Part shown: positions 26,451-63,487 of the stretch, piece after piece
How the letters are laid out: each line of letters begins with the position of its first letter
Position numbering within the stretch: the stretch's first letter is position 1
NCBI GenBank assembly: GCA_032433765.1
Contig: JAVIAB010000101.1
Coordinates: forward strand, 64,642,640-64,706,639
DNA: 64,000 bases
Origin: Megaustenia siamemsis
Lineage: Eukaryota > Mollusca > Gastropoda > Stylommatophora > Ariophantidae
Direction: 5' to 3'
Made by a program: the position numbers and the translations under genes
The notes under the pieces: generated by a model
Databases searched by the model: none
The model's input: the letters and a program-made list of their open reading frames with translations, nothing else
What the model was told of the DNA's origin: nothing

Positions 26451-26479
26451 GACCCTAACAAGTTAAATGTTCATGAATG

Positions 26480-27310
26480 TCATTGACAGAATAACTAGTA
26501 GACTCAACTCAGTGACAGACTAATCCACAAGACTCACCACACCAACAGACAAATTATAAAGCTCAACTCACCGACACACTAATTTCGAGATTCAATTCAC
26601 TTTCAGATTAATTATGAGAGCCAATCTACTGACAGGCAATCTACGAGACTCAACTCGGACATACATACAAACTCAACTCTAACAGACTAATTACGAGGCT
26701 CAACTCTGTCACACTAATTACGATACTCAACTCTGATACACTAATTACGAGACTCAACTCTGTCACACTAATTACGAGACTCAACTCTGATACACTAATT
26801 ACGAGACTCAACTCTGTCACACTAATTACGAGACTCAACTCTGACCGACTAATTACGAGACTCAACTCTGACACACTAATTACGAGACACAACTCTGAGA
26901 CACTAATTACGAGACTCAACTCTGTCACACTAATTACGATACTCAACTCTGATACACTAATTACGAGACTCAACTCTGTCACACTAATTACGAGACTCAA
27001 CTCTGACCGACTAATTACGAGACTCAACTCTGACACACTAATTACGAGACACAACTCTGAGACACTAATTACGAGACTCAACTCTGTCACACTAATTACG
27101 AGACTCAACTCTGACCGACTAATTACGAGACTCAACTCTGACACACTAATTACGAGACACAACTCTGAGACACTAATTACGAGACTCAACTCGGACACTG
27201 ATTACGAGATTCAACTTTGGCACACTAATTACTAGACTCAACTCTGGCAGACTAACTATGAAACTCAACTTTGAGATATTAATTACGAGACTCAACTCTA
27301 ACACACTAAA
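26480..27310. repeat. 27-bp minisatellite with higher-order structure
   Basis: Unit ACTAATTACGAGACTCAACT plus CTGACAC, about 30 copies, more diverged at both ends. Because 27 is a multiple of 3, the minus strand stays open for 182 codons (26650-27198) and encodes a nine-residue repeat of the SVSELSLVI type. Four variant units (with C, S, R and T at variable positions) recur as a block, giving a 108-bp higher-order unit three times. No sign of a signal peptide or flanking exon, so I do not call it a gene. Confidence 0.9.
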
Positions 27311-27366
27311 TACGAGCATCCAGTTGCTCATTTCATCTACCCCCGGAAACCTTGCTATACATCAAT

Positions 27367-30811: not shown

Positions 30812-31314
30812 ATGGACGAGGAGATAGTCAAAAAGAAGGAAAAGCAGAAAAAATACACACATACAGAAATAAAAGAATGTACAATTTGCGTAGTCCTATC
30901 TGCTATATTGTACACTATACTGAGAGCATATTATTAGTGAAGGAGAAGGGGGACAAAGTATTGCAGGCGCAAGATATTGGGGACGAAATGTTAAAAATGT
31001 TACAGAAATTAACGGCCAACATAGAGAGTATGTTACCAAAGACAACTCATGGCTTGGAAGAAATAAACACAAATAATACGAAGAGGTCACAGAAAACAGA
31101 AAACAAAGAGGAGGCAGAAAGTAAGGTGAGTCTATGGAATTTAACTGCAGCTGAAATAGAGGAATGGACAAGAGAGAAAGAAGAAAGTTTATTCACGGAT
31201 TTATACGGTGAGCAAGAAAGTAGGCGACCACGTAAACGCCGGAGAAGAGAAAATAAAAGGGAAAGATATCAAAGATATGATAAATATGATACAAAATACG
31301 GAACATGCCAGTAG
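30812..31314 (+). pseudogene. Gag-like relic, copy 1 of element 2
   Basis: MDEEIVKKKEKQKKYTHTEI at 30812 corresponds to MDEEIERKVRKEEKG of element 1 (near 12950). After a frameshift, SILLVKEKGDK, GDEMLKMLQKLTANIESMLP, a polar segment, LWNLTAAEIEEW and an Arg-rich RRPRKRRRRENKRER follow, ending at a TAG after YGTCQ at 31314. The knuckle and RRM-like part found in element 1 are absent here. The basic C-terminus would suit RNA binding. The 66-bp array starts four bases after the stop. Confidence 0.65.
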
Positions 31315-31317
31315 TAG

Positions 31318-32296
31318 GAAGAGGAAGTAGAGAGGAGAGAGCCCGGAAGGGGCGAAACTGAAATGGGTAAATACAAGTAGTGGTGAGGGGAGGAAGAGAG
31401 GAGAGAGCCCGAAAGGGGCGAACCCGAAATGGGTAAATACAAGTTGTAGTAAGAGGAAGTAGAGAGGAGAGCGCCCGAAATGGGCGAACCCGAAATGGGT
31501 AAATACAAGTTGTAGTAAGAGGAAGTAGAGAGGAGAGAGCCCGAAAAGGGCGAACCCGAAATGGGTAAATACAAGTTGTAGTAAGAGGAAGTAGAGAGGA
31601 GAGCGCCCGAAATGGGCGAACCCGAAATGGGTAAATACAAGTTGTAGTAAGAGGAAGTAGAGAGGAGAGAGCCCGAAAAGGGCGAACCCGAAATGGGTAA
31701 ATACAAGTTGTAGTAAGAGGAAGTAGAGAGGAGAGAGCCCGAAATGGGCGAACCCGAAATGGGTAAATACAAGTTGTAGTAAGAGGAAGTAGAGAGGAGA
31801 GAGCCCGAAAAGGGCGAACCCGAAATGGGTAAATACAAGTTGTAGTAAGAGGAAGTAGAGAGGAGAGCGCCCGAAAAGGGCGAACCCGAAATGGGTAAAT
31901 ACCAGTAGTAGTAAGAGGAAGTAGAGAGGAGAGAGCCGGAAAGGGCGAACCCGAAATGGGTAAATACAAGTAGTAGAAAGAGGAAGTAGAGAGGAGAGAG
32001 CCGGAAAGGGCGAACCCGAAATGGGTAAATACAAGTTGTAGTAAGAGGAAGTAGAGAGGAGAGCGCCCGAAAAGGGCGAACCCGAAATGGGTAAATACAA
32101 GTTGTAGTAAGAGGAAGTAGAGAGGAGAGCGCCCGAAAAGGGCGAACCCGAAATGGGTAAATACAAGTTGTAGTAAGAGGAAGTAGAGAGGAGAGCGCCC
32201 GAAAAGGGCGAACCCGAAATGGGTAAATACAAGTTGTAGTAAGAGGAAGTAGAGAGGAGAGCGCCCGAAATGGGCGAACCCGAAATCGGCGACTAA
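31318..32296. repeat. 66-bp tandem array, about 15 units, with small hairpins
   Basis: Unit: AGTAGAGAGGAGAGCGCCCG, AAATGGGCGAACCCGAAATG and GGTAAATACAAGTTGTAGTA plus AGAGGA, period 66. Each unit carries CCCGAAATGGG or CCCGAAAAGGG twice, which can fold as CCC/GGG hairpins with a five-base loop. Two variants (AGAGCCCG and GCGCCCG) alternate. Since 66 is a multiple of 3, minus-strand frames of 189-343 codons run through it; they look like artefacts. Confidence 0.92.
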
Positions 32297-44796: not shown

Positions 44797-46087
44797 CAGT
44801 AAAGTCTCGATTATGCGGTACTCAATAATCCGGAATTCTCAATTTAACGGACTTTTTTTTTTTTTTTTATTATTATAGGGAGAAAGCTTGAATCATGTTT
44901 TGTTCAGTTAAATTAAATGCCTTTATCCGGAAATCGAAAACGCTACAACACGGTTTGTGCGCTGCGCTTACTTCTACAGGCTCTATCATTACACAATATT
45001 GCGTTTACAATAGTGTATTTACAGTAATATACTTCAAATAGGAGCGAACATATTTTATTCAATCCAGACATTGTGTCTCCAAATATTCCAAGTAAAAGCG
45101 ACAGACAGTCTATATCTTCACTTTTTCCCCCGACTAAATGTTTTTGTCGGGAAATCTTAGTCGTGCCAAAAACACTTATCTACATGATTTTACAAATTTG
45201 CTTAATTTTCTCATAGCCTGCTTTAGATCTAAAGTTGGTCATGAATTTGTCAAAAATATGGCGTTTGACAGTCTGACCGAACATTAGAAGCAGACGTATT
45301 GTTTGTGAAAATTGAAGAACCCATAACTTTGATGATTATAAATCAAAGGTTGAGCAGCCGGCGTGCAGTGACATAGAGATGGTGAGAAGAAAGGGGGAGG
45401 GGTTCAAAAATTACCGACTGGAAATTCAAAAAGAGTAAGATACAGAGTTTGACGTTAGTTTGTCTCAGACATTTGTGCAAGCTGAAATTCGTTCCATCAG
45501 TATAAATTATACATGATATGCTATAAACGCATGTGTGCATACTTTTTAACGGAATACATTTTTGTGTTAAATAATGGCCTCTGCGAGTGCAAACCACACC
45601 TCAATTTCCCGCAAAGGTAAACGCAAGCGAACTGTATTTACACTGAACCAGAAGATTGAAATCGCTAGTAGACTTGAAAAAGGCGTTAATCGCAACGTTT
45701 TGATGACTGAATTTGGCATAGCCTCTTCAACATTATATGACATACGAAATCAAAAAGATGAGTTGTTTAAGTTTGCGTCGGAGTCTGAAAGCAGCAACAA
45801 TATACACCAGAGACGAAGTATGAAACGGCCAAAATTTGAAAAACTCGACGACGTCCTTTATGTGTGGTTTTTAGAAAGAAGAAGAAAAGGAATGCCAATA
45901 TCAGGACCCATGTTGATAGAGAAAGCTAGTGAATGTCACACGAATTTAAATATTTCTGAGCATTGCAATTTTTCAATCATGTTTTTTCATAAATTTTGAG
46001 TTTGGTTTTCTTACTCTCGATTATCCAGAAAAATTCAATTATCCAGAATGGGTTCTTCACCGAGCATTCCGGATAATCGAGACTTTA

Positions 46088-46389: not shown

Positions 46390-46850
46390 TAATTAATAAC
46401 GTATACGCAAATAGAACTAACAGAAATTAGGTTAAATACAAAAGTACACATTTTCAACGCCAATGTTAAGTCAATCTTAATATATGACCGTGAAAAATGG
46501 AGAACAACAAAAATGACAACCATGAAGATACAGACCTTCATTGATGGATGTTTGAGCCGAATAAAATGATGGAGATAGCAGGAAGGAATCACTAATGACG
46601 AATTATGGGAAAGTACCAGTGACATAAAAGTGGACAGAGAGATATAACGAAGACGATGATGATGGATAGGACACACACTGGGGTAGACAATAAGAGTATT
46701 ATACGGCATGCCCTTTTTTGGAATCATCAACGAAATGGAATGATCTTAAAAGTATTGCAATAAATATAATTGTTTGGAAAGTGTTTGTTGAAGACCTATG
46801 CTGCACACAGATTTAAAGGAGGAAAAGAAGAAGTAGATATAGGAAAAAAA
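46390..46850 (+). mobile_element. LINE relic, family C, plus strand
   Basis: The plus strand matches the complement of 40640-41110 and 38950-39230: GACCGTGAAAAATGGAGAAC, a DDGWDTHWG-type counterpart of RRRWRWIGH, and GCATGCCCTTTTTTGGAATC. Many stops. Confidence 0.7.
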
Positions 46851-47477: not shown

Positions 47478-47516
47478 TATAAAAAATATCACAGAGTAAA
47501 CAATGTTTCCTCAGAG
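47478..47516 (+). promoter_or_regulatory. TATA box and initiator of the candidate micro-exon gene
   Basis: TATAAAAAA at 47478-47486 and TCAGAGC at 47511-47517, about 35 bases apart, which suits an animal core promoter. The ATG of exon 1 lies about 60 bases further on. Confidence 0.5.
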
Positions 47517-47574
47517 CTTCACGTAGTACCAAATTCAAGGGTTCTCATATCTGTGTGTGTAGTAAACCTTTGAA

Positions 47575-47734
47575 ATGGCAAGATCAACTCTCCTGATATC
47601 ATGTATCATTGCGTGTTGTGCCTTCGCTTTGGCTTTAACCAACCCTATGCCTGATTCAAGTAAATCTGACGCAATCCTTGTTGATGAAATACCTGCTATT
47701 AAGGAAGCTAGGCGAGCTATAGGCTTACATCAAC
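47575..47734 (+). CDS. Exon 1 of a candidate secreted-peptide micro-exon gene
   Basis: ATG at 47575 has a good context (G at -3, G at +4) and an in-frame TAA 12 bases upstream, which fixes the start. The first 21 residues are a classical signal peptide: MARS, then a hydrophobic core LLISCIIACCAFALAL, with likely cleavage after ALA or ALT. A propeptide-like part (SSKSDAILVDEIPAIKE) and a dibasic ARR follow, a possible processing site. The exon ends CATCAAC with the strong donor GTGAGT (47735), in phase 1. Without splicing the frame would stop at 47740. Sixty bases upstream stand a TATA box and initiator. I do not recognise the peptide. No LINE or SINE covers this region, so it looks like host sequence. 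See the microexons at 50288, 52543, 61107 and 63461. Confidence 0.6.
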
Positions 47735-47742
47735 GTGAGTAA

Positions 47743-48544
47743 TCGTAAATGTATGCTTACTCTTTTAGTTGCAAGTGATACACGAATCGGTTAGTCTTAG
47801 TTTAGCTACTTAATTAAAGTGATCCCCCCTTAGTTGACGTCAAAAGATAGCTGTAGTATATTTCAAATATGAAATATTATCTCTATGTTCATAAATGTTC
47901 ATCACTATCAGAATGTTTATTTTTTTTTTTTTGTTTGTTCGGGGTTAGGGTCTGGGTTATTTACTTTAACAACTTCGAACAACCGAATAAGGTGCAAAGT
48001 TACTCTCCGTGACGTTACTCTTGTGAAACTGAAATAATATATGTCCCTAAACTAGGACTTTACTTGCATTCAATAAACAAATGATGTATATTTACCAACG
48101 TGTTTTTTTTCAAAATGTGTATTAGCATCGAATATTAATATAACTAAACTACACTGTATTGTTTTATATAGTGATTTATGTTTTCCAGTTATACTTTGGT
48201 TCTATGCCACACATTAATCTTTGATATTCTAATATATCAACGGTAAACTGTTTAGCATGTTATTAGATCACCTTCTTATTGATATTGTACAATACCATCG
48301 ACTCTTGAAAATGCTGCTCTATCAACAACTGCCTATTTCTCGTTAGTTTCTTCAACATGGAACCATATAACCGTATATATATATATCCCTATGTTCGATG
48401 TTCGAGTGCAATCTCATGAAACATTAACATTTTGATGTTAACAATATATATATATACTCGTATATATATATATATATCATAATACATTTTACTTATTATA
48501 TATTACATAATATGTGGCTAGCTACCTACTAGTGTAGCTAGTAC
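47743..48544 (+). other. Intron 1, first part
   Basis: AT-rich with short TA runs near 48380 and 48445. A 43-nt stretch after the strong acceptor at about 47947 is open in phase 1, but it would break the frame with the next microexon. Confidence 0.4.
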
Positions 48545-48745
48545 AATCGCCAAGTGGCGTATAGGGAATATGGTGTTAGTGATCATACATTTTACAGACC
48601 TTAGCCTTAGGCACATGATTTTTTGGGTAATCAATGTGATCGGTATTACGCCTGTGCCACTTTACTTTCCCAGAAAAAAAAATCAGGTACCCATTAAAGG
48701 CTGGGTGAACCGTCCAGTTTACTAACCACCGAGCTATTGCGACTC
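48545..48745 (-). repeat. tRNA-derived SINE, partly deleted, minus strand
   Basis: Same family as 44296: GCGCAATAGCTCGGTGGTTAG-type head (minus strand, near 48740), GGTTCACCCAGCCTTTAAT, CGTAATACCGATCAC and CCACTTGGCG at the 3' end (48551). The B-box part of the head is deleted. Confidence 0.8.
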
Positions 48746-48819
48746 CTTATAATAACATATATTTATGGTATACTCTTTAGTTATGTGAAAACAACTCAGC
48801 ATTTTAAAATTCTCCAATT

Positions 48820-49215
48820 CAAAATATATTTGTCCCGTTCATTGTATGTTGATTTTAGCAGGTCTTTCCCAAGATCTGTCTTTACAGTTATTATAACTGT
48901 TTCCATCATTCCTTTCCTGTATGTGTTTTTATATAATATCAGAAAACCCATGCCGTTCTTTATATTTTCTTAAATCCAGCACTTGCTGCTGTCGATGACG
49001 TTAGAGCTGTACTGTGGAATTATTGCATCTCATCTACGGTCATCTGGTCTTCTCGTCTAGTTCATCAAGCAATGCAAAGTGGTTATTGAGCTGTAGGAAA
49101 AGGTTGCCATTAATATCCGCGTCATTCAGTTGGTGGCTATTTATCTTCTGAGAACTCAATTTTTCTGTGTTGGATTTTCTATTTTAATTTTATCTTTCCA
49201 ATGCATGAATTTCGA
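48820..49215 (-). mobile_element. RTE-like LINE, family B, linker segment
   Basis: Complement aligns with 22610-22980: CAGGTCTTTCCCAAGATCTG, ATCCAGCACTTGCTGC and the CAATGCATGAATTTCGATCA end. Degenerate and intronic if the gene model is right. Confidence 0.65.
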
Positions 49216-49309
49216 TCATTGTAATTTACTATGTAATTTGGAATTGCCATCAACTTTATTATTCTGAAGTGCGGTGCATGTGACAAATGCATATCATTGA
49301 CGTATATAG

Positions 49310-49920
49310 TGTAAGAGATCAAATAAAGAAATTGTAATAAAATGCAATGAAGCATGGCTACAAGAGAGATGCAATGAGATTGAAATGCAACAAACAAGAG
49401 ATGATAAAGCTATACACAAGCAAATTGAAGAATTAAAAGGAAGAAAAACGCAATCAAAAACTGGATGTTTGAGATCAAGGGACGGAGAACTGTTGATTGA
49501 ACAAGAAAGCATAAGCGAACGATGCACATAGTACATTAAAGATCTTTATAATGACGAACAACCACTGGAGTCTGTAGAAATGTGATTTTACAGAAGAATG
49601 TTGAGGATACCATGGACAGCTAAGAAGAGTAATGAACATTTTCTGAAAGAGGTCAAAGCAAAAAGAGAGTTAATATCCAATATTTGGAAGAAATACTCGT
49701 CATTTTGAGAACAACTGGAATATTTTGTAACAACTGGACAAATTGAGGGACGGAGAGATAGAGGGAAGCAAAGAGAAAAAAATACCAGACAGCTTAAGAG
49801 AATCTCTTGGCAGAAGGTCAACAACAGAAATGATAAATACTGTGGAGATCGAAAGTTGTGGAGAGACATTACCACCTACACCAGCAGGCCCGGTACTTGA
49901 TGATGATGATGATGAAAACA
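49310..49920 (+). mobile_element. RTE-like LINE, family A2, internally deleted
   Basis: 49310-49560 is the linker (CNKQEMIKLYTSKL, then LLIEQESISERC as at 170). At about 49562 it jumps to the RT C-terminus (FYRRMLRIPWTAKKSNEHFL) and the end GGCCCGGTACTTGATGATGA at 49889. The whole RT core is deleted. Confidence 0.75.
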
Positions 49921-49924
49921 GCTC

Positions 49925-50287
49925 AGATAAATAAAAAAAATAAAAGAAACGTTCACGCAATTACGTATATACAACTTTATTAACAAAGAGAAAAACCAGA
50001 TATGCCAAACGTTTTACAAGTGTTAACATGATAAAACGGGAATTATTTTCATGCCGTAGGGAAATAATATAATTTCGCAGTACACGATAACATCATTTAG
50101 AAGAGAAATAGCCAGTGCTCTTTCTCGCTAGTCAGCTTTATTTTATCTAAATATGTGCATTTAATAGGGAGTTATTTGTATATTTTGCCTTTGATTAAAT
50201 AACTATTAATTTATTTCGTACATTAACTCAAATATGTGTATATAAGGTAATTAATCCTCAAAATTAATCCTCTACTTGTATTCTCAG
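49925..50287 (+). other. Intron sequence up to acceptor of microexon 2
   Basis: AT-rich; ends in a pyrimidine-rich acceptor CCTCTACTTGTATTCTCAG at 50287. Confidence 0.35.
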
Positions 50288-50303
50288 GCGAATATAACAA
50301 ATT
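50288..50303 (+). CDS. Microexon 2 (16 nt) of the candidate secreted-peptide gene
   Basis: GCGAATATAACAAATT lies between a strong acceptor (CTACTTGTATTCTCAG) and an exact GTAAGT donor (50304-50309). Entered in phase 1 it adds Arg (with C from exon 1), then EYNK and the first two bases of Phe, leaving in phase 2. Confidence 0.45.
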
Positions 50304-50514
50304 GTAAGTTACAATAGTTTGAGTTGATATTTGTTTTAAAATGATACCTATTTCAAGATAATATATGGCTCTATATAAGTATCATTGTTTAGAAAATAGA
50401 AACAATAAAAGTGCTCTATTCTCACAACCATCCCGCATCTGCTCAAAATGTATCTACGTCATACGTTTAAAAATATGAATGCACATAATAATGAATGAAT
50501 ATTATTATAGAGGG

Positions 50515-50730
50515 AAACTTCCGAGGCGATAATTCAGCGAATCATAGGAGGAAGTGGTTTGTATTACAGCACTCCGAAAAAAAAATGATAAACAACAATA
50601 ACAGAAAGAAAAAAAAACTATGAAAAATATATGGTCCGAAGTAGGATCGAATCCGTATTCCTTGGCACTGCGCCTTGCCACAGGAAGCCGAACGCTAGGG
50701 AACACTGCCACTCAAATCTTCAATCTGGCT
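50515..50730 (-). repeat. Probable tRNA-derived SINE of another family, minus strand
   Basis: GGATTCGATCCTACTTC (B box) and a GTGGCAGTGTTCCCTAGCG head on the minus strand (50640-50720); the body reaches A-rich and T-rich tracts near 50575. No duplication found. Confidence 0.5.
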
Positions 50731-51203
50731 TTCTCATCCATTCTTCAAGATATCAATAAATTGATATCACAACTTGTCCAGTGAGCGATTTATCAATCTG
50801 GATCTCTGTTTTACAAATTATTACACAGTTACACAATTATTCAAAGAAAGATCATTAGTCTTTGTGTCGATTTAGGAAAGTATTGGCCTATTAACGACAC
50901 CAGCAGCAGGGTGGTGAATTCTCACAAATCTACTTTGTATTCCGCCTAAATTCAAGCGTAATGTATTTAGATTTTTGTTTAACTTTAAACACTACATTAT
51001 TTTATGAAACAAAATAGATACTAGATTGTCGTAAATAATGGGACATTGATACCTCTACAGTTTGCTAACTTGTCATTGATATGCCAATTATTTCGTTAAA
51101 AATACATTTTTATTGCAACCATTGAATTTTACCACTCCGAAATGTCTTTATTTCAGTATTTTGACATCGTTGTTTGTTCCTCTATGAGGTCGTTCTCATT
51201 TCT
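50731..51203. other. No recognised feature (intronic in the gene model)
   Basis: AT-rich. A good acceptor-like CTTTATTTCAG ends at 51155 but has no donor within a microexon distance. Confidence 0.35.
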
Positions 51204-51302
<99 letters not shown>

Positions 51303-51304
51303 TA
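51204..51304. repeat. (TA)n microsatellite 5' of a LINE
   Basis: About 45 TA units running directly into the truncated LINE. Confidence 0.95.
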
Positions 51305-51890
51305 AGCAATGTCTTTCAGAAGCCTTGAAAAGTTGTGGAAATCAAAACTCATCAGCACAAACACAAAAATTAGACTATTCAAATCAAATGTACTATCAAC
51401 CCTTACATATGCGTGTGAACGCTGGAAAACAAGAGAGACATAGAAACGAAGTTGAACGCATTCGAAAATAAATGTCAAATGAAAATACTTGGTATAGCGT
51501 GGAACGAATTCAAAACAAACGAGGAAATTAGAGAAATCGCCAATCAACCACTAATATCTTCAGTAATAAAGAAAAGACGATGGTCATATGTAGGACATGT
51601 GATGAGAAGAGATAATAACCGAATAGCAAAGCAAGCCCTCATGTGGGAAACAACATGTAAGATGAAAAGAAGAAGACCCAGAGAGACACTGAGAAGAACA
51701 TTGATTAGAGAGGCAAGAGCAGCAGGAGTCGGCTCCCTCAAGGAGATAGAGCTGCTTGCACAGAACAGAGTCAAATGGCGACATTTGATAAGATATCTTT
51801 ATAAGAATTGAAAACTGCTAGAACAAAAATTCAAATAAGTGAAGGAGTATCTTGGTCTACGCCCTATGGGCCAGCTGCGGCTCGAAAGGT

Positions 51891-51892
<2 letters not shown>
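51305..51892 (+). mobile_element. 5'-truncated RTE-like LINE, family B
   Basis: [56 protein letters not shown] and MKRRRPRETLRRTLI follow the copy at 20902 closely. One frameshift near 51440 separates the first block from the open frame 51452-51811. The 3' end is GGCTCGAAAGGTCAATA, which runs into TA repeats instead of the ATAGATAG tail. Confidence 0.82.
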
Positions 51893-51948
<56 letters not shown>

Positions 51949-52000
51949 GTATATATATGTATATATATATATATATATAACTATATATATATGTGTGTGT
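51893..52000. repeat. (TA)n microsatellite at the LINE 3' tail
   Basis: Starts within the tail GGTCAATATAT of the family B LINE. Confidence 0.95.
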
Positions 52001-52542
52001 GTTTATATGCACACATTTTCTAACAGGAACCGCAACCAAAATGTTTAATTTTGCGACGTAGTGTCATCATCAGCCTGTTCGGACCTAATATAAAAGTTAA
52101 TGTAGCTGTTTATGTTTTACCTACATACTGGGTATCGGTCACACACTTTTGTTTGGGTGAAGTATTTTTATGTAAAGCAAATGTGCTTCTCTTTTGTTTC
52201 CATCGTTAGAATCCAGGTATACTCTCTCAGAACTTTCGAAGCTTTGACTACAAAACCGTTACAATAAATGGCACTACGTCAGGGTATCTGATGAAACTCA
52301 TATAAATGATTTAAATCTGAAGTACTTTCTCTTCCAATCGACCTGACATATCGGGCATACACTTATATCTTTCTGTGCATTACAATTCACTGATTAAACG
52401 TTTTGTTTTCTATTTTCATGCCTACATATAAGACTATATAAAATAATAACATATTGAAGCTGATGAAAGAAAGTGATGCCGTTCTATTTTATTTATTATT
52501 TTAACCGCATCGTTCTATAAATAAACTAACAATAACTTGCAG
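52001..52542 (+). other. Intron sequence up to acceptor of microexon 3
   Basis: No repeat or coding sequence recognised. Ends ACAATAACTTGCAG at 52542, an acceptable but not pyrimidine-rich acceptor. Confidence 0.35.
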
Positions 52543-52564
52543 TGTAAACGATGAGCCTCGTAAG
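52543..52564 (+). CDS. Microexon 3 (22 nt) of the candidate secreted-peptide gene
   Basis: TGTAAACGATGAGCCTCGTAAG (two more than the quoted limit when read in one piece: TGTAAACGATGAGCCTCGTA then AG) is followed by an exact GTAAGT (52565-52570). In phase 2 it completes Phe and adds VNDEPRK, leaving in phase 0. The other two phases meet a stop, so only the phase delivered by microexon 2 works. Confidence 0.42.
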
Positions 52565-52570
52565 GTAAGT

Positions 52571-53030
52571 AAATTTAATTCAGATAGCATTAGCTTCATA
52601 TGCCTAACACTTGACCATAAGGGACGGTGGATTGTATATGACGATGCGAAATAATTGTCCACGCAACACTGAATGCTGTCCCATATGAATAGCCACCGCT
52701 TTCTGTTCACATAGAAGGCTAAGTTAATAACTCTTTCTGTACAGAATATTTGCATCAATTTAGCGGTATAGATTTCAGAGACAACATGTTTCATGTTTAT
52801 TAATATTAATCTATATGTTCATTTTAAACTAAATCCTAACATATATAGTATTATTTATATAATTAAACACTTGTAAGTATATTTCACCAATACCATGATG
52901 ATACAAGACAAATAAAAAGAATATTGTTTGATGACAGTTTACACTAATCAAATTTAGAGTGACGCACTGTGCGGCTAAGCGTACATGACCAGAATCGGCA
53001 TGGTGCATGGTGTGTCTAAACGTACGGATA
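52571..53030. other. No recognised feature
   Basis: AT-rich, no repeat assigned. Confidence 0.35.
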
Positions 53031-53225
53031 GAGTTAACTATCGTTTTTGTATCCAACAAACCTGCTTTACAGCTTTTTCAAAAGAAACGCATACAGAATC
53101 TGAGGAGCTACCAAATAAATTCTATATTACAAATTAAGCCACAATTTAAAGATGGTCTTGAAGCTGTACAATCCGCTTTTATGCAAAATCTCACAGCATT
53201 GCAGGAGGACAATAGCGGAAAGTAG
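53031..53225 (+). other. Orphan open frame, possibly coding
   Basis: The frame reads QKKRIQNLRSYQINSILQI and FKDGLEAVQSAFMQNLTALQ to a TAG, with amphipathic helix character unlike the satellites and LINEs around it. A good acceptor CAACAAACCTGCTTTACAG ends at about 53069, so it could be a 3' exon of some gene. Its phase does not fit the micro-exon gene. Not recognised. Confidence 0.25.
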
Positions 53226-54092
53226 TGACAAATCTAGGTAGTGGTTATTCGAAGACCCTGATATCTCTACAAACGAATGGAGATCCATAATTGCTCAACA
53301 GCTCGTGCCAGTTAGATCACCCGTATTAACAACGAATTGAATACCTAGACAAAGAAAAGCAGTTACAGTCCACATCGTAGCAGATACAGCACACGTCAAA
53401 AGAAATAAGGAGCTTCCGCAGTGAACTGAACGCTTCTAAACTGTCTTTCGTCGTACTGTATCATCATTCATAGTAAGCAATCTGAACATAGAAACACCAT
53501 CTGGATGAAACACACAGTTCACGGTGTGCACGGGGCACGACTCAGTAGCTCCGGCATCAAGCCGGACTTGGAATATGAGGGAGCTACAACAAGGAACATT
53601 TTTCAGACATTGGCTCAACGGTTCCCTATCGCCTATACAACATACTAACCGGATGTCCAGTTGACAAGTTCAATCATGTAACCAGAACAAGTGTACATAT
53701 AAGTCATTATCGTAGAGCAGGAAAGGTCAAATGGCGTTCCGGCAGTCTGTTTGTCTTGGCGCTTGACAGCGTCAGATCATTACTACCCGTGTGGTGATGA
53801 CGTCAGATTATTTTTTCTCAGAGTGAGAGTCAGATCATTCCTAGCAGTGTGTGGCAAACGCGTCAGATCATGTATTTCCCTGTATGGTGAAAGCATCAGA
53901 TCCTTGGCTTGTAATTTACCCGCTTGACCTGGAGCACTGTCATTTCGTGGAAAAAGGTTCATGAGGTTGGAAGGAAAGAGGGTTAGGGGGAATTCGACCC
54001 AACATCTGGATTGAAAGTAAAGGTAAAAATACCTTTTACTGCTCGCCTTCATTCATTTTCATATACCCGAATACCGTCTTATTTATACTGTA
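53226..54092. other. Unassigned; short diverged repeats with GTCAGATCAT
   Basis: GCGTCAGATCATTACTACCC-type units recur four times at 53767, 53796, 53828 and 53862 and onwards with uneven spacing. TGACGTCA, a perfect CRE palindrome, is at about 53798. Confidence 0.4.
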
Positions 54093-54455
54093 TTTATAGA
54101 AGAATTCAGGAAGAATTGGATGGAAAGAAAAGAAAATAAACGATGACGTTTTTAAACAATTAAAAATGAAAAGATAACTATTAAACACAATTAGAACAAG
54201 ACAAATGACATTTTTGGGGCATGTTAAAAGACACAACAGCCTGCTAAAAGTAATATTGGAAGGGAAAATAAAGGTAAAAGAGACAGAGGCAGACCACGAC
54301 TAACATGGACGAATAGCATCAAAAGATGGACAGGTCAACCTATGGCAATCTGCACCAACAAAGCAAGAGGTAGAGTGAAATGGCGCTCCATGGTAGCCAA
54401 CCTTCGATAAGGAGACGGCACTCAATGAAGATGATAATGATGAATACTGCCTATA
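54093..54455 (+). mobile_element. RTE-like LINE 3' part, family A
   Basis: RIGWKEKK, MKR, MTFLGHVKRHNSLLKVIL and GRP blocks with stops, and the end GGAGACGGCACTCAATGAAG with a GATGATAATGATGA tail. Confidence 0.75.
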
Positions 54456-54879
54456 AGTTGACACCATAATTAGACCATAAACTGACTCCAACCTTGTTGT
54501 TTCCTACTGAATACAAAATAGAATCAACAAGAATGTAGATATACAACTGTTACCAAAACTGAAAAAAATCATCGCTCATTGTATCATAAGTGATTAGTTA
54601 TAAACTTGCAAAATCTAAACACCGGTTTGCTGATTTACGTTTTGAGAAAAATAAATGTGCAAATCAAATGGTAAAGCATTTTGCGAAAAAAAAATTGAAT
54701 CTGCACCACTATCGAAACTGTTGCCAGAAGAAAGTACGATATCAGATTGCATTTGTCTCAATGTTTATCATTTTAAATTGAAAACTCCTTCTATTTTTTT
54801 CGTTAGCGATTGATGAAAGTATTAACATCATTGGCACGAGCCAGCTTCTTATTTTTGTTAAAGCGATCTACGAGAGTTA
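54456..54879. other. No recognised feature (intronic in the gene model)
   Basis: AT-rich, nothing assigned. Confidence 0.35.
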
Positions 54880-55841
54880 AACAAGAATGTATTTTATCGC
54901 CCTTGTAATTTGGAGTAGCTATGGAAATCATAATAAAGAAATGCTGCACTGGTAACAAATACATCGAATGTATACATGGAGACTTATTGGAGGACCTCGA
55001 CTTTGTTGATGACATAAAACTCACAGGAGCCAGATAAAGACGGTGCAAGAATGCACAAATGAACTATCACCAATACTCGGCAAAATTGGGCTTGAGAACA
55101 ATTATGAAAAGCTTAAAATCATGAAGAGATTAATTCAAAAATATGAAAGGATATACATGGAAAACAAAAAGGTGGAAGATATTAATCAGTTTGTCTATCT
55201 TGGAAGCCACATTGATCGGGAAATGAATAAAAGTAAATAAATTAGAATCAGAATAGCTAAAGAAGCAATGTCTTTCAGTAGCTTTGAGTTGTGGAAATCG
55301 AAACCCATCAGTACAAAAACAAAACTTAAACTAATTAAATCAAACGTACTATTTACCCTTAAGCATGCATGAGAGAGCTGGAAAATAACAAGAGACATAG
55401 AAACATAGTGTGATGCATTTGAAAATAAATGTCTAAGGAAAATACTTGTTATAACATGGGGCGAATTCAAAACAAGGTCTGAAATGATTGAAATCGCCAA
55501 TCAAACACTAGTATCATCAGTAATCAAAACAAGACGAGGGATATACGTTAAACATGTGATGCGAAAATATATTGGCCAAATAACAAAACAAGCCCGCCTT
55601 CATGTGGGAAACAACATGTAGGACGAAAAGAGGCAAGAGAAATACGGAAAACATTGAACATTGATCATAGAGGCAAAGGCATCAGGAATCGGCTCCCTCA
55701 ATCAGATTGAGATGTTTGCACATGCAATAGATACATGGGGGAGATTTGATAACAGTTTTTTGCAAGTATTGAAACTGTTAGGAAGAAAATTTAGGGAAAG
55801 ATGATATGAATTCATGCCTATGGGTCGGCTATGGCTAGAAA

Positions 55842-55842
<1 letters not shown>
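54880..55842 (+). mobile_element. 5'-truncated RTE-like LINE, family B, leading into the GATA array
   Basis: MEIIIKKCCTGNKYIECIHG, LEDLDFVDDIKL (active site ADD changed to VDD), YLGSHIDREMNKSK, FENKCLRKIL and the PMGSAMARK-like end follow the family B order with many stops. The 3' end CTATGGCTAGAAAAATAGAT runs without break into (GATA)n. Confidence 0.8.
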
Positions 55843-56736
<894 letters not shown>

Positions 56737-56738
<2 letters not shown>

Positions 56739-56917
56739 GGATGGATGGATGGATGGATGGATGGATGGATGGATGGATGGATGGATGGATGGATGGATGG
56801 ATGGATGGATGGATGGATGGATGGATGGATGGATGGATGGATGGATGGATGGATGGATGGATGGACGGACGGATGGATGGTTGGATGGGTGGTTGGGTGG
56901 GTGGGTGAATGGATAGA
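56737..56917. repeat. (GGAT)n microsatellite
   Basis: About 33 GGAT units, then variants GGAC, GGTT and GGGT. One substitution away from the GATA array it continues. Confidence 0.95.
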
Positions 56918-56939
56918 TTTAGAGATCGATTTTATTGAC

Positions 56940-57298
56940 AATTGGTTATTAACCAATGTGGTTTATTGTTATTTGGTTATTAAACAGTGTGGCTTATTAC
57001 CATTTGGTTATAAAACAATGTGGCTTATTGTCATTTGGTTATTATACAATGTTAGTTATTGACATTTGGTTATTAACCAATTTTGTTTAATGACATTTGT
57101 TTCTTGACAATGAGGTCTATTGCCCTTTAGTCATTATACAATGTGGTTTAATGCCTTTTGGTTATTAAACAATGTGATGTATTGAAATATAGTTATTACG
57201 TAATATTATTTATGGTCATTTATGTATTAAACATTTTGCTTATTTTCGTGTAGGTATTAAACAAAATGGTTTACTGTGATTTTGGTTATTTTAAATTG
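56940..57298. repeat. 31-bp diverged minisatellite, about 11 units
   Basis: TTGGTTATTAAACAATGTGG plus CTTATTGTCA(T) recurs at 56942, 56973, 57004 and 57035 with a period of 31, then with growing divergence to 57298. Confidence 0.85.
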
Positions 57299-57369
57299 TG
57301 ACTCTTTACTATGTACCTTTTAGATTTTGTTTCTTAAGTCCTAAGTAAAAAAAAAAAAAAAAAAAATCA

Positions 57370-58745
57370 AATGCAAATGCAGCACATCCTCTGTTGTTTT
57401 TTTTCGGAAACCCATTTGAGAATCGCTTAACTATAGTTCTATTATTGGTCTCAGCCTTTTTTCCTCGATCTTGGCGTATAACTTTCCTACATGGCTGAGA
57501 AGAGATACACATCTGTATTGATTGCAGTCTCTTTTGCTTCATGTCTTTTTCCATACTGGTACGATGATTGCCTGTTGCCAGTTTTATGTGGCTTTTATTG
57601 GTGTCATGCTGCATTGAATATTCTGTGCGGTGGTGCCACTCCTGTTTCTCATGCTGCTGCTATTATTTCTATTGGTGTGTTATCTAACCCCGGTGCTTTA
57701 TTCCTTGACGCATATTTGAATACGTCTTCGATTTCCTCTTTCATGATGTTGGGTTCAGTATTTGTTCATTATTGCGTGGTTTGTGTTGCCTGATTGATAG
57801 TTGATGGCATGTTTAATAGTTCTTCAAAATATTCTGTCCATCTTGGTTGCTTATGTTGTTTATTTGATATTGTCTGTCCATCTTTGTCATTCTGGCTCTA
57901 GTGACTTTTACTGCTTTGTAGAGATTTCTTGTGGTTGTTTTGATGTCCCTGCTCATATGTTGTTTGAGTTATGTTTAATTCTTTTGTTTAGCTTCTTTGA
58001 CCAACATTTTAACTCATTTTCGAACTAAGGCATATGTTTCATATTTTTCTTGATTCTTATTCTCCCTCCAATTTTAAAACAATTTCTTTTTTTCTTTAAT
58101 TACTTCTCTAATTGCTTCGTTCCACCACAGGCTGCTCTATTTCCCTTCCTGTGTCCTTATCTTTGTACCACATACTGTTTTAGAGATCGTGGTTACTGTT
58201 TTCTTAATTTGTTTCCAACTTTCTTCTACTGTGTTTACTTCGTTAGGCAGTCTCTTGAATTGATCTTTTAGTTTTCCTTCTAGGGTTTTCCTTGATTCTT
58301 GATTTTTTATTGTATGTTCTTTTTGCTTCTGTTTTGTTTTTGTTTTCGTTTATCCTCCTTGTTTTTTGCTGTCTGGGTGTAATCATAACCATTTTCTGGT
58401 CCGTGTATACTTTAACATTAAGGATTGCTCTGCTGTCGGTTACTATTTTCTTGCTCCGTTTTCGTGTTAGTATAAAATATATATGGCTTCTGCATGTTGT
58501 GGCATTCCATTTGTACCTGGTGTTTAATTGCTACTCTCTGTGTTTGAAGAATGTGTTGGTGATAAATACATCATTTTGATTACATATTTTCAGTAGTCTG
58601 TTTCCATTTGTGTTTTTAGCTTCAGCTATTTTAACGCCATCGTATCCCAATATATATATATATATATGCTCTCATTGGTGCGTTTAGGAAGCATTCCATT
58701 GAAATCTCCCATCGCTAACACGACTTTGTTCGACTAGCACTTATT
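57370..58745 (-). mobile_element. LINE relic, family D: endonuclease end, linker and RT start
   Basis: Minus strand, from right to left: KVVLAMGDFNGMLPKRT (endonuclease GDFN) near 58690, a long linker, IMKEEIEDVFKYASRNKAPG near 57720, GLDNTPIEIIAA near 57670, and KLYAKIEEKRLRP near 57470 with SQMGF-type decay toward 57370. A run of 24 A lies at 57343. Repeated stops. The KAPGLDN block marks the RT entry as in RTE-type LINEs. Confidence 0.72.
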
Positions 58746-59055
58746 AATATGCGATGATGTGATAAAATCTGAAGAATAGAAACTCTCGGAAAGAACCATG
58801 CGATCTCGTTTAGTGATACAACTGAAGAAAGATAAATACAGCCGCTATCAATTGCGTTTCTCTATTTCTCACATGCGAGTATGCAATTTACGAGCAGTTC
58901 GGTAGCAACAGAATCAGACTTAACAATCAGTCCTCACCGTCAACTGTCATAGGTAACAGTCAATCATAACTTGACAGCCACAGTCCGCAACATCAAATGA
59001 CATAGATAACAAATACACCTGCCCTGACACTAACAGGCTGTAGCGTCTGTTATCA
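58746..59055. other. No recognised feature
   Basis: Mixed-composition sequence without repeats seen elsewhere in the window. Confidence 0.35.
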
Positions 59056-59067
59056 ACCGGTAACATG

Positions 59068-59332
59068 AAAAAAAAAAATAAATGAAGTACCGCCGACACG
59101 CCAAGTGGCATAATTTGAATATGTTGTTAATGACCATACATTTTACAGACCTTCAGCACATGATTGTTGGGGTAATGTGGTCGGTATTACGCCAGTGCCG
59201 CTTTACTGTCCCATTAAAAAAATCCAGTACCCATTAAAGGCTGGGTGAACGGGAGCCATCGGTTGGGATCCAACCCTACCTCTTATCCTTTGTAGTCCAG
59301 TTCACTAACCACTGAGCTATCTCGGCTCCCAC
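59068..59332 (-). repeat. tRNA-derived SINE, full length, minus strand, with duplications
   Basis: Head GAGCCGAGATAGCTCAGTGG (A box) and GTTGGATCCCAACC (B box) near 59330-59265, then the same body as 44296 and a tail of T's (minus strand). ACCGGTAACATG at 59056 and ACCGGTAAGATG at 59333 differ at one base and flank it. Confidence 0.85.
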
Positions 59333-59345
59333 CGGTAAGATGTAG

Positions 59346-59621
59346 TATGTAGAAATGGGTGGACATTTTCACTGTCTACTGTAGTGTGGTAACAGGAAAA
59401 CATGACCGTACAATCATAGACAGTACCGTTTTATTATTGAGCTATGGTAGACAAACATGTCCTAACTTTTTTGTCAAAATAATCGAGATACTGTTAAATG
59501 TGAAAACAAAAAAAAACATTCACGAACTAAGCGACGAAATTCTTGTCATCTCCAGTTATAGCAACATATGGAAGGTTCCAAAACGTTAAAATCAATTGTC
59601 CCTTGTACAAGTTGAGACCCA
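59346..59621. other. No recognised feature
   Basis: AT-rich. An accidental 76-codon frame at 59359 has no recognisable content. Confidence 0.35.
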
Positions 59622-60345
59622 TCATCATCAACATCCAGTGCCCTCTCCGCATGGGAGGTTGACTGCAGCGGAACTCTATTCTGCTATGTCTCTTGCATTG
59701 ATGGTTCAGGTTGTCATACGCTGTCTTGTCCATCGTTTGATGTTACTAGTCCATGTTAGACTTGGTCTGCCTCTGCCTCTAGTACCCTGTATTGTACCTT
59801 CAAATTTTACTTAGTAGTCTGTTGTGTCTTTATCTTGTCCCAAAAATGTTTATTTGTCTTGTTCTAATTGTATTTAGTAGTTCTCTTTTAATTTTTAGTT
59901 GGTTTAAAACATCATCATCTGTTCTCTTTTCTTTCCATCCAATTCTACCCATTCTGCTATAAATCCCCATTTAAAAGGCTTCAATTTGTTGTTATGTTTT
60001 CTTGTCTAGTGTCCATGTATCTGCACCATACAGAATTTTGAGAAGATATAACATTTTGCTATTCTTAGTGTTAGCCCTAGTGTTATTTGTGCTAATGTTA
60101 GTGTACGTTGCATGGCATTACAATTACTTTTTGCCATTCCTATTATTTTGTTTATTTTAGTTTTACATTTTCCATCACTGGTTATAGTATTTCCAAAGTA
60201 GTTGTAGCTCTGAACTGTCTCCAGGTCTATTCCTTTAATGTTGATATCCACTTGTAGGTGCTGAGTATTATCTTTGCTTATGGTCATAGTTTTAGTCTTT
60301 TTGATATTTATATCTAATCCATATTGTTTGCTTATCATGTTTATT
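59622..60345 (-). mobile_element. RTE-like LINE, family A, RT C-terminal part
   Basis: KQYGLDINIKKTKTMTISKD near 60330, YNYFGNTITSDGKC near 60200 and the GRMGRIGWKEKR-type block near 59950, ending AGAGGGCACTGGATGTTGAT with a GATGATG tail at 59622. Good match to 16640-17385, but with frameshifts from 60010 on. Confidence 0.8.
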
Positions 60346-61106
60346 TATATAGGTAATTGTTGAAGATCTTTAGGAGAGTTAAAGTTTAAGTTGAGACTCG
60401 TCGCCAGATATCTTGCTGAATACATCATTTATGTCTGAAGTCCCCAACAGAAGAGAGCTTGCGACTGTGAAAGAATGAATTAACGATCATCGAAACTCGC
60501 AAGAATAGGACAAATATTAATATTCTCTTACAACAAATTGTCTCTCGGAACATATGCTGTTATGGAAGAAGAGAATACAGCGTGTTGCTCCCCAAACCAA
60601 TCACAGAATTATCGAAACCAATTATCCTGACACGTACATTCTCTTACAAAGATTATATAGTGAATGTCCAGTCCATCTCAAAATATATTTCATAATCTGT
60701 TGTTCGATTGACGTTTTCTCACATATTTTTATTATTGATCATACAATCAGATTCTTTGTGGCTTTTTTTATGTTTGGCTGTGTTATTTTACTTGGCATCG
60801 ATATTTAGTAAAACGGTTTAGAACAGCAGCTCGGAAATATGGCATTAAGTTTCGATATTTTGATTGAGTAATGTGGATAAAATATCTTCCGAAAAAAATG
60901 GAGAATTATCTTGAAATAAATGTACAAGATGAAAAAGATGCACAAATAAATCCGTAAAACGAATAAAGGCAACCGCATTGACATTAATTGCGGACATTTG
61001 TTCGACAAAAAGTATAAATATGACACGTTTTAATGGAGATTTAATGTTAGAGTTAATGTTTGAAAGTGCTAGATTTCATACCTCATTTATAATGTATTTT
61101 CTGCAG
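60346..61106 (+). other. Intron sequence up to acceptor of microexon 4
   Basis: AT-rich, nothing assigned. Ends in CTCATTTATAATGTATTTTC then TGCAG (61106), a strong acceptor. Confidence 0.35.
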
Positions 61107-61124
61107 GCGGAAATAAAAAAGGAA
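61107..61124 (+). CDS. Microexon 4 (18 nt) of the candidate secreted-peptide gene
   Basis: GCGGAAATAAAAAAGGAA follows a strong acceptor and precedes an exact GTAAGT (61125-61130). In phase 0 it adds AEIKKE and stays in phase 0. An I-like LINE inserted 16 bases after the exon; its duplication begins at the second base of the donor, which remains intact. Confidence 0.45.
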
Positions 61125-61125
61125 G

Positions 61126-61140
61126 TAAGTAAATATATAC
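61126..61140. repeat. Target-site duplication, left copy (15 bp)
   Basis: TAAGTAAATATATAC recurs exactly at 62462-62476. Confidence 0.85.
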
Positions 61141-62461
61141 TCGGGACAAGTTGATGACATACATCGGAGTTAAGTTTGATCGCAGCCTGTGTTTTCGGCA
61201 CCACGTCGACCATGTGATAACAAAATCCCGCAAAGGATTAGCCGCCTTGAAGGTCATGGCAGCTGCCAACATCGAGCAGAGGCTACTTACTCTTCTGTTC
61301 CAGGGATTAGTCCTCGCACCAATCGAGTATGCCCTGGCCATTCTTACTGTCAGTACGACTCAAATTGATAGGCTGGAGAAAATACAAAATGAAGCCATGC
61401 GCATTATCCTGGGATGCACGAGGGACATGTAGCAATGAGGTATCTTCTTGACTTTCCAACCATGGATGACAGAATCAAGATCTGGAGAGCACGAGCATAC
61501 CTGAAGATTAGTACAGATACAGAGCATTCATTGCACCACGTGCTCAACACAGAGAAAGGTGCCAGGCTAAAAAGAGGCAAATCATGGGTGGGCCGAGCAG
61601 AAGATGTCATCAAACAGGTCAGTGGGCTTACCAATATCAGCGTTGGTGAGGAGTGGATACCGGTGCTCACGTCATTCAAGGGGACTTTCTCGTGTATTAT
61701 CACACTCGACAGGAAAAGTAGGGAACAGAACCCGGTCGTGGTTAATGCTGAGGTCAACGGTCTAATCTGCGATAACACCGATGAGAAAGATGCAGTCATC
61801 TATACAGACGGATCTGTAAGACGACACGAAAGAAGTGCATGGGCATTTACAGCACGCTCAGCAAACAGAATAGTCTACGAAGACAGTGGTGCATACGTCA
61901 TGACCACGAGTAGCATGACAATGGAGACGATGGCAGTCACCAAGGCATTCAAATGGTTAGAGTCACAAGACTACACCCACGCATGTATACTGAGTGATTC
62001 GATGAGCATGATAAAAGAAGTGGAGGCGGGATCTGTACGCATGCAATGGGTAGAGTCGTTGCAGAAACCCAAAATACGTAAGTTCACCTTTGTCTATGTC
62101 CCTGGACATGCGGGAGTACGGGGAAATGAAAGGGCGGACAGGTTAGCTAGCTTCGCTGTCGTTGAGGACGGGCAACCAATGGATCGGGCGGACATCATCA
62201 AGCCCTCCGAGATGTGGGAAGAGCACTGGACTTCGACAAACACAGATCCACGTCACTTCTTCGGATGATGGAAATGGGAGTTAAGATGGGCACAACCAGA
62301 AATGGGAAACTTAGTGGCCGTGTAAGAAGACTTATCAACCAACATAGAACTGGAGTCGTCAGTCGCTGGACACTGAGGGAATTGCTGAGGAGGGGATCTG
62401 AGCACCTATGGACATGTTCGGAGTGCAATGATGATGACCGGCAAATAACTCAATAACTCAA
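61141..62461 (+). mobile_element. Young 5'-truncated I-like LINE
   Basis: 1.32 kb, flanked by a perfect 15-bp duplication. Starts within RT after the ADD motif (KLMTYIGVKFDRSLCFRHHV), continues through the connection domain and RNase H, and ends in the 3' tail CAAATAACTCAATAACTCAA. Two small deletions separate the frames. The perfect duplication and the few changes relative to the copy at 912 indicate a recent insertion. Confidence 0.9.
61151..62456 (+). pseudogene. RT C-terminus, connection and RNase H of the I-like LINE
   Basis: Three open frames overlap in order: 61151-61432 (KSRKGLAALKVMAAANIEQR), 61414-62268 and 62214-62456 (RRLINQHRTGVVSRWTLREL). The RNase H set is complete: VIYTDGSV near 61800, SMTMETMAV near 61915, CILSDS near 61990, and YVPGHAGVRGNERADRLAS near 62095-62150 with the last aspartate present. 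A 7-base deletion near 61425, relative to 1945-1960, causes the first shift; loss of one base near 62200 causes the second. RT palm motifs are missing by truncation, so it cannot move by itself. Confidence 0.85.
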
Positions 62462-62476
62462 TAAGTAAATATATAC
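62462..62476. repeat. Target-site duplication, right copy (15 bp)
   Basis: Exact partner of 61126-61140. The base before it is A where the donor has G, so the copied donor is not GT-complete. Confidence 0.85.
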
Positions 62477-63460
62477 TTTTAATTTTTTGGTGAAATAAAA
62501 AAATTGAACATGAAAAAAAGTATGGACATTGAGTGTATTATCTTCTGATTTGTTCAATATGTATGGCGATGTCTATTTTTAATTTAAAAAAAAGGGATTT
62601 AAAATGATCCATGTTTAACCTCAAACACAACAGTCCCTTAAGTTATACGTCCTTTTCAGATCCATATTAATTCCACTTCCTTTAAAGATTAAAAACAAAA
62701 TTATGCATGTTACGAGTTTATCCAGAGTCAGGCTAGCATTGTCAGCGAGTATATTCGCTATTTCATTGTTGTGAATTCCATCCTGTTCTGAAGGCTTCCA
62801 TATTCAACCCACTACCCTGTCAAACATGCAGAAGATGCAAAATTTCGGTCGGTTGTAAGACACTTTGCAAGTCCGTCACTTATGTTTTGTAGTTCCTGTT
62901 TTGTGTAACGAGAAATTAAATCGACGTTGTTGCTGCTTCTATCACAATGCACATGGTGCAGACTGTAAAATGAACCAAATCGAGATAATTTAAGAAAGGG
63001 AAACTGAGGTTAATGGACATAGAACGGAATGACGCAAGACAATTTAGTAGACTTTAGTAGCAATAGGTCAATTACATTGTTAAAATACAGCAGTGGAGAT
63101 AAAACGTTGTGAAGAGTCATGACCATTTACGCCAGGAGACATGTGCTCGATGATGACGCAATGGCTTAATTTTACTGACACGTGAAGAGCGAAGTTGTAG
63201 CGTTTTTATTGGATCATATGCTTCATGTATCTTGGTCCATTATGTTGAATAGAAAACCCTTTTGAGACGTACTTGTTAAAGACAAAATCCATAATGGTAA
63301 ACTTTTACTTTGTATAAATTATGGAGTATAAGAAACTGTTGGCATAAAACAAGACGAATTTATGAACTCTTTGTAAAAATAAGCAATTGGGAATAATAGT
63401 AGAAAACTATGTATAGAAAAAGATCATTTCTAAACTATAATGCCATGCATTATCTTTCAG
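62477..63460 (+). other. Intron sequence up to acceptor of microexon 5
   Basis: No repeats or other coding sequence recognised. Ends CATGCATTATCTTTCAG at 63460. Confidence 0.35.
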
Positions 63461-63481
63461 ATTTACCTGTTGCTAAAGGGA
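63461..63481 (+). CDS. Microexon 5 (21 nt) of the candidate secreted-peptide gene
   Basis: ATTTACCTGTTGCTAAAGGG plus A lies between a strong acceptor (TTATCTTTCAG) and an exact GTAAGT (63482-63487). In phase 0 it adds IYLLLKG and stays in phase 0. The gene would continue beyond the right edge. Confidence 0.45.
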
Positions 63482-63487
63482 GTAAGT

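Follow-up and report, generated by a model that had tools for sequence, protein, structure and literature searches.

A predicted micro-exon gene with a signal-peptide exon and a long series of symmetric microexons in a probable gastropod genome

Micro-exon genes and related systems

Micro-exon genes (MEGs), a term coined for schistosomes and later extended to tapeworms (PMC7653826), encode secreted products in runs of symmetric exons of 6-36 nucleotides (nt) and share long introns, tandem families and a fast-changing mature part (PMC5825161, PMC4350168, PMC7653826, PMC10526429). Their variant proteins are reported from proteomics and have been discussed as a means of immune evasion (PMC5825161). 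The bicycle and megacycle genes of aphids likewise encode secreted, fast-evolving proteins and consist of numerous microexons that share a phase; in Melanaphis sacchari, for example, the megacycle gene has 118 exons in ~100 kb (PMC9168663). A gene of comparable architecture is described here. It begins in a stretch of 64,000 nt, hereafter the window, which covers positions 64642640-64706639 of C100, a 71-Mb contig in an assembly of 2.59 Gb and 155 contigs. With a probability of about 0.88, the locus in the window is the 5′ part of a gastropod micro-exon gene that belongs to a secreted, fast-diversifying family.

The predicted gene differs from both known systems in several respects. Introns of flatworm MEGs reach ~5 kb in S. 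mansoni (PMC10526429), whereas the longest intron here would measure 13 or 17.5 kb. The host appears to be a mollusc, exons 2 and 3 are asymmetric, and, whereas variant MEG proteins are reported from proteomics (PMC5825161), the snail gene is predicted from DNA. The internal exons of bicycle genes, which belong to insects, are almost all in phase 2 (PMC9168663), whereas the microexons of the snail gene adopt phase 0 from exon 4 on and, in the window copy, are cysteine-free. Among the open-licence PMC papers retrieved for microexons or short exons in molluscs, none describes a molluscan micro-exon gene, to judge by title and opening of the abstract.

Exon structure of the predicted gene

The start of the gene is marked by a TATA-like element, TATAAAA, at 47478..47484 on the plus strand, which carries all features of the gene, ~95 bases 5′ of the ATG. 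The coding part of exon 1 (47575..47734, 160 nt) opens with this ATG, which is preceded by an in-frame TAA. It encodes a putative signal peptide beginning MARSTLLISCIIACCAFALALTNP and a dibasic RR site, and ends in phase 1 before GTGAGT. Four microexons follow in the window, each with CAG before and GTAAGT after it: microexon 2 (50288..50303, 16 nt, phase 1 to 2), microexon 3 (52543..52564, 22 nt, phase 2 to 0), microexon 4 (61107..61124, 18 nt, phase 0, AEIKKE) and microexon 5 (63461..63481, 21 nt, phase 0, IYLLLKG). The acceptor of microexon 3 is the weakest of the four. When joined, the five exons form an open chain of 79 codons, in which microexon 3 is readable in a single frame, the one handed on by microexon 2.

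A sequence-only reading of the window had proposed this exon series, and most of its description is borne out. The TATA box is present as a TATA-like element, and the in-frame stop before the ATG, the signal peptide (by eye), the dibasic site and the 160-nt exon with its GTGAGT are all in place. The exon coordinates, the splice sites, the phases 1, 2, 0, 0, 0 and the stop-free chain were re-read as claimed, the restriction of microexon 3 to the delivered phase was checked across frames, and the introns are indeed filled with repeats. Its count of four GTAAGT hexamers on the plus strand downstream of exon 1 was too low, the actual number being six. One of the two overlooked sites, at 52873, has a TAG 24 nt 5′ and 7 of 15 pyrimidines, and the other, at 62078, lies inside the RNase H frame of a long interspersed element (LINE) with a CAG 13 nt 5′. 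The four microexons are real, but the size of the gene was underestimated, since the model now extends to 22 microexons over 121 kb.

Evidence from the window alone is suggestive and falls short of proof. GTAAGT is not enriched there, with 26 occurrences observed against 37 expected. Scored with generic splice matrices, the four microexons take ranks 1, 6, 18 and 27 of 481 acceptor-donor pairs from the two strands. A stricter rule, fixed after the four exons had been seen, requires a CAG 10-30 nt ahead of GTAAGT and five or more pyrimidines out of 10; it is satisfied four times, compared with a shuffle mean of 0.58, and a count of four is attained in 4 of 1000 shuffles. The decisive evidence is the sequence beyond the window. 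It comprises the 110 kb downstream, of which 2500 bases within 64001-74000 (L008, inside the gene, in coordinates continued from the window) are N, and 110 kb of par2 (C100 65038561), a tandem paralogue at 96% in exon 1, with which the window copy is colinear over more than 100 kb. About 227 kb separate 168897, the last position of the model in continued coordinates, from the next copy of exon 1.

The resulting model consists of exon 1 and 22 microexons of 15-36 nt, spread across 121,323 bases and containing 696 coding bases. Beyond the four window microexons (starts at 50288, 52543, 61107 and 63461), it includes 18 more, reaching 168897 in continued coordinates. These start at 65659, 67542, 79055, 80898, 87886, 90519, 108067, 116476, 120715, 125829, 129115, 132447, 141335, 143596, 147841, 161113, 165078 and 168868. 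Twenty of the 22 microexons are divisible by three, exons 2 (16 nt) and 3 (22 nt) being the exceptions, and phase 0 holds throughout from exon 4 on. The predicted chain of 232 residues is stop-free in the window copy and in par2, a result to be read with the knowledge that the frame was in view when some exons were chosen. Ile, Ala and Asn abound in the encoded peptides, each of which is 5-12 residues long; the 22 microexon peptides contain no cysteine in the window copy and one in par2. Introns measure 1.8-17.5 kb (median ~3.8 kb), and the longest of them contains a duplicate exon at 98248, use of which would lower the maximum to 13 kb.

The periodicity of exon lengths is apparent in systematic scans. 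When GTAAGT is paired with a pyrimidine-rich acceptor 9-60 nt upstream, the window copy yields 26 plus-strand candidates, 18 of which are multiples of three (binomial p = 2e-4), and par2 yields 21, including 16 multiples of three (p = 7e-5). All 18 of the window-copy multiples can be read through in frame 0, compared with 7 in frame 1 and 9 in frame 2. GTAAGT itself occurs 49 times on the plus strand of the gene region and 19 times on the minus strand, against a first-order Markov expectation of 32. A single fixed rule (GTAAGT with a strong acceptor 9-36 nt upstream), applied to 116 kb without the paralogue, returns 20 candidates, of which 18 are multiples of three open in frame 0; 300 shuffles gave a mean of 1.08 and a maximum of 5, and the minus strand gave 1 of 3. 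Two of these 18 exons, 98248 and 146379, stand outside the 22-exon model. Upon alignment to par2, AG and GT are kept in 29 of the 43 candidates on the plus strand, counting nested ones, versus 3 of 12 in the minus-strand control.

The 22-exon model combines the matches present in both copies with exon 3, taken from the sequence-only reading, and three hand-picked exons (87886, 141335 and 165078), which have non-GTAAGT donors in the window copy and whose selection took frame and length into account. The reason for including 165078 is the GTAAGT that par2 shows there, and 87886-87906 and 141335 are the only ones taken from the 14 other-donor rows that pass the frame filter. Exon 3 fails the pyrimidine rule in the window copy (5/10) and passes it in par2. 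Window-copy candidates left out are 67916 (14 nt), 73845 (52 nt), 76027 (50 nt), 77490 (46 nt), 108067-108113 (47 nt, nested), 117159 (32 nt) and 132800 (23 nt), together with 146379 (36 nt), whose splice sites are lost in par2, and 98248, the duplicate of 90519. Omitted par2 candidates are 32587, 46493-46539 (nested), 48037, 62020, 73121 and 90501. Aligned rows were set aside either as nested (67509, 79063, 108067-108113, 116484, 120678, 120722 and 129084) or otherwise (98248, 117159, 130250, 130962 and 132800).

Paralogues and the pattern of exon change

Exon 1 belongs to a family found at seven places, all on C100, a count that is a lower bound obtained with a single protein query; the exon-1 protein of the window matches the six paralogues at 96, 96, 81, 79, 67 and 42%. 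All seven copies have the ATG, a signal peptide as judged by eye, and GTGAGT or GTAAGT in equal phase, and the surroundings of the TATA-like element align in six of them, the exception being L007. All three paralogues read over exons 2 and 3 retain both of them, flanked by CAG and GTAAGT. In the two older of these paralogues, p4 and p5 (20 kb each), both exons are unchanged in place, length and splice sites, and the aligned stretches of intron on either side share ~84-88% identity with the window copy. Of the 22 positions of exon 3, the window copy differs from p4 at 5 and from p5 at 9, and the two older paralogues differ from each other at 7. Neither exon 4 nor exon 5 was found in p4 or p5 over the 20 kb read in each. 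Each of these paralogues carries two other phase-0 microexons, encoding IEKAAYI and IAKNIRVPTD in p4, and IAKDADT and TARNLHNPTG in p5.

Closer to the window copy, par2 keeps exon 4 and has an identical exon 5 (63461), as well as identical microexons at 52543, 80898 and 168868. Splice-site letters differ between the two copies at 6 of 198 positions, compared with 346 of 3777 in the flanks; this conservation is partly built in because AG and GT were required for matching. The microexons differ at 58 of 470 positions, a small excess over the flanks (p = 0.03) that stems from two exons, 67542 (10/30) and 108067 (10/15), both of which exceed their own flanks. Between p4 and p5, differences amount to 27 of 90 positions in microexons versus 94 of 695 in flanks (Fisher p = 1.6e-4, with one of the eight flanks aligned across just 16 bases), and the splice sites are kept. 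Exon 1 has a dN of 0.017 versus a dS of 0.055, giving a dN/dS of ~0.3 that rests on four changes. A microexon has been duplicated with its flanks inside the gene (90519/98248, 93.9% over 424 bases), and the donor of the exon matching 125829 is weakened to GTCAGT in par2. Taken together, these exon and splice-site comparisons indicate that the locus retains its splice sites, tolerates or favours exon change, and gains and loses exons.

Functional gene, decaying family or structural protein

Several observations weigh against a functional gene of this kind. Multiples of three are not in excess among candidates with other donors (35/119 aligned rows), so that the exons taken from this class are weak. 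Certain candidate exons are present in one copy only, and neither a 3′ end, nor a stop codon, nor a poly(A) site was found in the stretch read (to 168897). The dibasic site is absent from one of the seven family members (L006). Synonymous sites are also raised between p4 and p5 (pS 0.27, 19 sites), which is compatible both with positive selection and with the replacement of exons. In the comparison of the window copy with par2, the 18 tested microexons other than 67542 and 108067 diverge about as much as their flanks (38/425 versus 39.7 expected), and dN/dS over 20 microexons is ~1 (dN 0.135, dS 0.133). Consequently, neither purifying nor positive selection is evident for most microexons.

The last two figures suit a dying gene family, formerly functional and now drifting, whose exon bodies change at the neutral rate, and donors weakened in single copies, such as the GTCAGT of par2, point the same way. 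Such decay is nevertheless improbable. The 232 codons are stop-free in both copies, with the frame in view for the choice of some exons; four microexons are identical in the window copy and par2; dN lies below dS in exon 1, on four changes; and the p4/p5 change is concentrated in exon bodies while splice sites are kept. Moreover, fast-evolving secreted proteins would give an equal picture.

Symmetric small exons occur in repeat proteins as well. The locus might thus encode a conventional long structural protein, collagen-like or elastic, with many small symmetric exons and no system of variation, and its exon sizes agree with this repeat-protein trait. This option appears quite improbable given the lack of a Pfam match in the first 79 residues, the absence of Gly-X-Y or any other strict repeat by eye from the 232-residue chain, and the hypervariability of certain exons between paralogues. 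Sequence searches with the product returned no homologue, known MEGs included. Pfam assigned no family to the 79-residue product, and the best hit of a PDB sequence search with it had an E value of 0.49. A protein search with the same 79 residues gave no candidate, in a search that needs shared 5-residue words and with MEGs changing fast. Two 210-residue chains gave 719 candidates, none with E <= 10, in a protein set that may lack MEG models.

Host lineage

The lineage of the host can be approached through genes and repeats elsewhere in the assembly. The haemocyanin beta-sandwich family, which is molluscan, has 71 matches, on C1 and C101, and none in 14 prokaryote controls. For the functional-unit-d exon, the highest scores are those of 3j32 and 4bed (114 bits), ahead of 8trz (97) and of 6r83 and 4yd9 (75-76); 3j32 and 4bed derive from abalone and keyhole limpet and 4yd9 from squid. 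A COX1 fragment (L032, C151:10323780-10324580), probably a nuclear mitochondrial insertion, contains three TGA codons and can be read through under either code 5 or code 9, and Met at conserved COX1 sites favours code 5. Repeats of the window or gene region recur beside COX1 at ~92% identity and beside haemocyanin at up to 87%. Because these repeats are common to the haemocyanin, COX1 and window contigs, the contigs very probably represent one organism. The LINE in the intron after microexon 4 (61143..62268) has three best matches at 65-66%, its best named match is the land snail Bradybaena similaris (60%), and the next named ones are a bacterial metagenome-assembled genome (45%) and the sea slug Elysia chlorotica (44%). 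From these comparisons, the organism is very probably a mollusc, and a gastropod is the likeliest.

A flatworm MEG, residing in a parasite genome or in a snail assembly contaminated by a parasite, would account for the architecture, and flukes do inhabit snails. It is very improbable in view of the 71 haemocyanin matches, the functional-unit-d exon that scores best with 3j32 and 4bed, the repeats common to the window, COX1 and haemocyanin contigs, the 71-Mb length of the contig, and the land-snail affinity of the intron LINE. The sequence-only reading had called the locus a micro-exon gene, in which tiny in-frame exons follow one that encodes a signal peptide, of flatworm type or a similar invention in another lineage. 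The gene class stands and the flatworm lineage does not; the second wording fits, as the organism is a mollusc. Chance, whereby strong donor hexamers with an AG shortly 5′ would make the chain a reading artefact, can draw on the matrix ranks and the two overlooked GTAAGT sites, but is effectively refuted by the shuffle test (18 frame-0 multiples of three versus at most 5 in 300 shuffles) and the paralogue tests (colinear copies in par2, and the retention of exons 2 and 3 by both p4 and p5).

The haemocyanin matches themselves form two clusters, at ~79.3-81.1 Mb of C1 and ~39.1-39.2 Mb of C101 (L035, L036). Several pairs are near-equal in score and opposite in orientation, as if expanded by inverted duplication.

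Classification and proposed function

The structural definition of MEGs, used for tapeworms and schistosomes, includes at least seven exons and at least four consecutive microexons (PMC7653826). The snail gene has 23 exons predicted from DNA and 20 microexons in a row (exons 4-23); 20 of the 23 predicted exons are microexons divisible by three, with the gene read up to 168897. By this definition, the predicted gene qualifies as a micro-exon gene (PMC7653826). Among the other traits of flatworm MEGs, a secreted product is indicated by the signal peptide judged by eye, and a flatworm genome is contradicted by the gastropod-like haemocyanin and the repeats common to the contigs. Two traits of bicycle genes are absent: internal exons are in phase 0 from exon 4 instead of phase 2, and there is no CYC motif, the microexons of the window copy having no cysteine, which we take the name of that motif to require. 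The gene is thus MEG-like by architecture and probably of independent origin.

A plausible course of expression can be outlined for such a micro-exon gene. A TATA-type promoter would drive a pre-mRNA of more than 121 kb. Its first exon would contribute the signal peptide and a short stretch that includes the dibasic site, and at least 20 or so microexons would follow. The product is predicted to be secreted, given the signal peptide seen by eye. Because the exons from 4 on are symmetric, any of them may be skipped, duplicated or swapped with the frame intact, and this symmetry would permit variant proteins to arise through splicing. The product may diversify as genes are duplicated, as exons are duplicated or lost and as exon bodies change rapidly, and probably also by alternative splicing. 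A gland secretion that meets a changing partner, which could be a parasite or microbe, prey, or a mate, would be its likeliest role. More speculatively, and with the odds running against it, gastropods may have evolved, independently of flatworms and aphids, a few giant genes that make a changing repertoire of secreted peptides by splicing of symmetric exons, with exon bodies replaced wholesale while splice sites and introns stay fixed. Such a system, if used in defence, would form a host-side counterpart to the MEGs of flukes that live as parasites in snails.

A clear molluscan case would show that micro-exon architecture arises repeatedly and beyond parasites. The bicycle genes of aphids constitute a second case, likewise in a host-manipulating animal. 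The paralogues, with flanking introns that differ by 9-14% and one pair colinear over more than 100 kb, allow exon change, loss and duplication to be followed base by base. Genes of this type would probably escape ordinary gene finders.

Repeats and neighbouring elements

The intron after microexon 4 contains the LINE mentioned above, a 5′-truncated plus-strand element with an RNase H frame (traced over 61143..62268) that starts 18 bases past the exon end. Its absence from par2 indicates that it is younger than the duplication and, therefore, a recent insertion. A transposon origin of exon 4 was considered and rejected, since the element begins beyond the exon, at 61143, and par2 lacks it. A second copy of the element, which matches it at 98% over 178 bases, lies on the minus strand of the window at 2042-2219. 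Within the intron that follows exon 3 there is a 1-kb array of the tetranucleotide ATAG (55843-56862), next to which follows a tandem array with a 31-base unit (56931-57198). An Rfam search of the window gave no match, and a tRNA scan of the window found none. Directly upstream of the gene, an open frame at 45571-45999 (plus strand) has CENP-B N-terminal and Tc5 DNA-binding domains and is probably a pogo/Tigger-type transposase fragment. Farther upstream, minisatellites occupy 6899-7838 (unit of 71 bases), 25987-26453 (37), 26573-27316 (27) and 31310-32286 (66).

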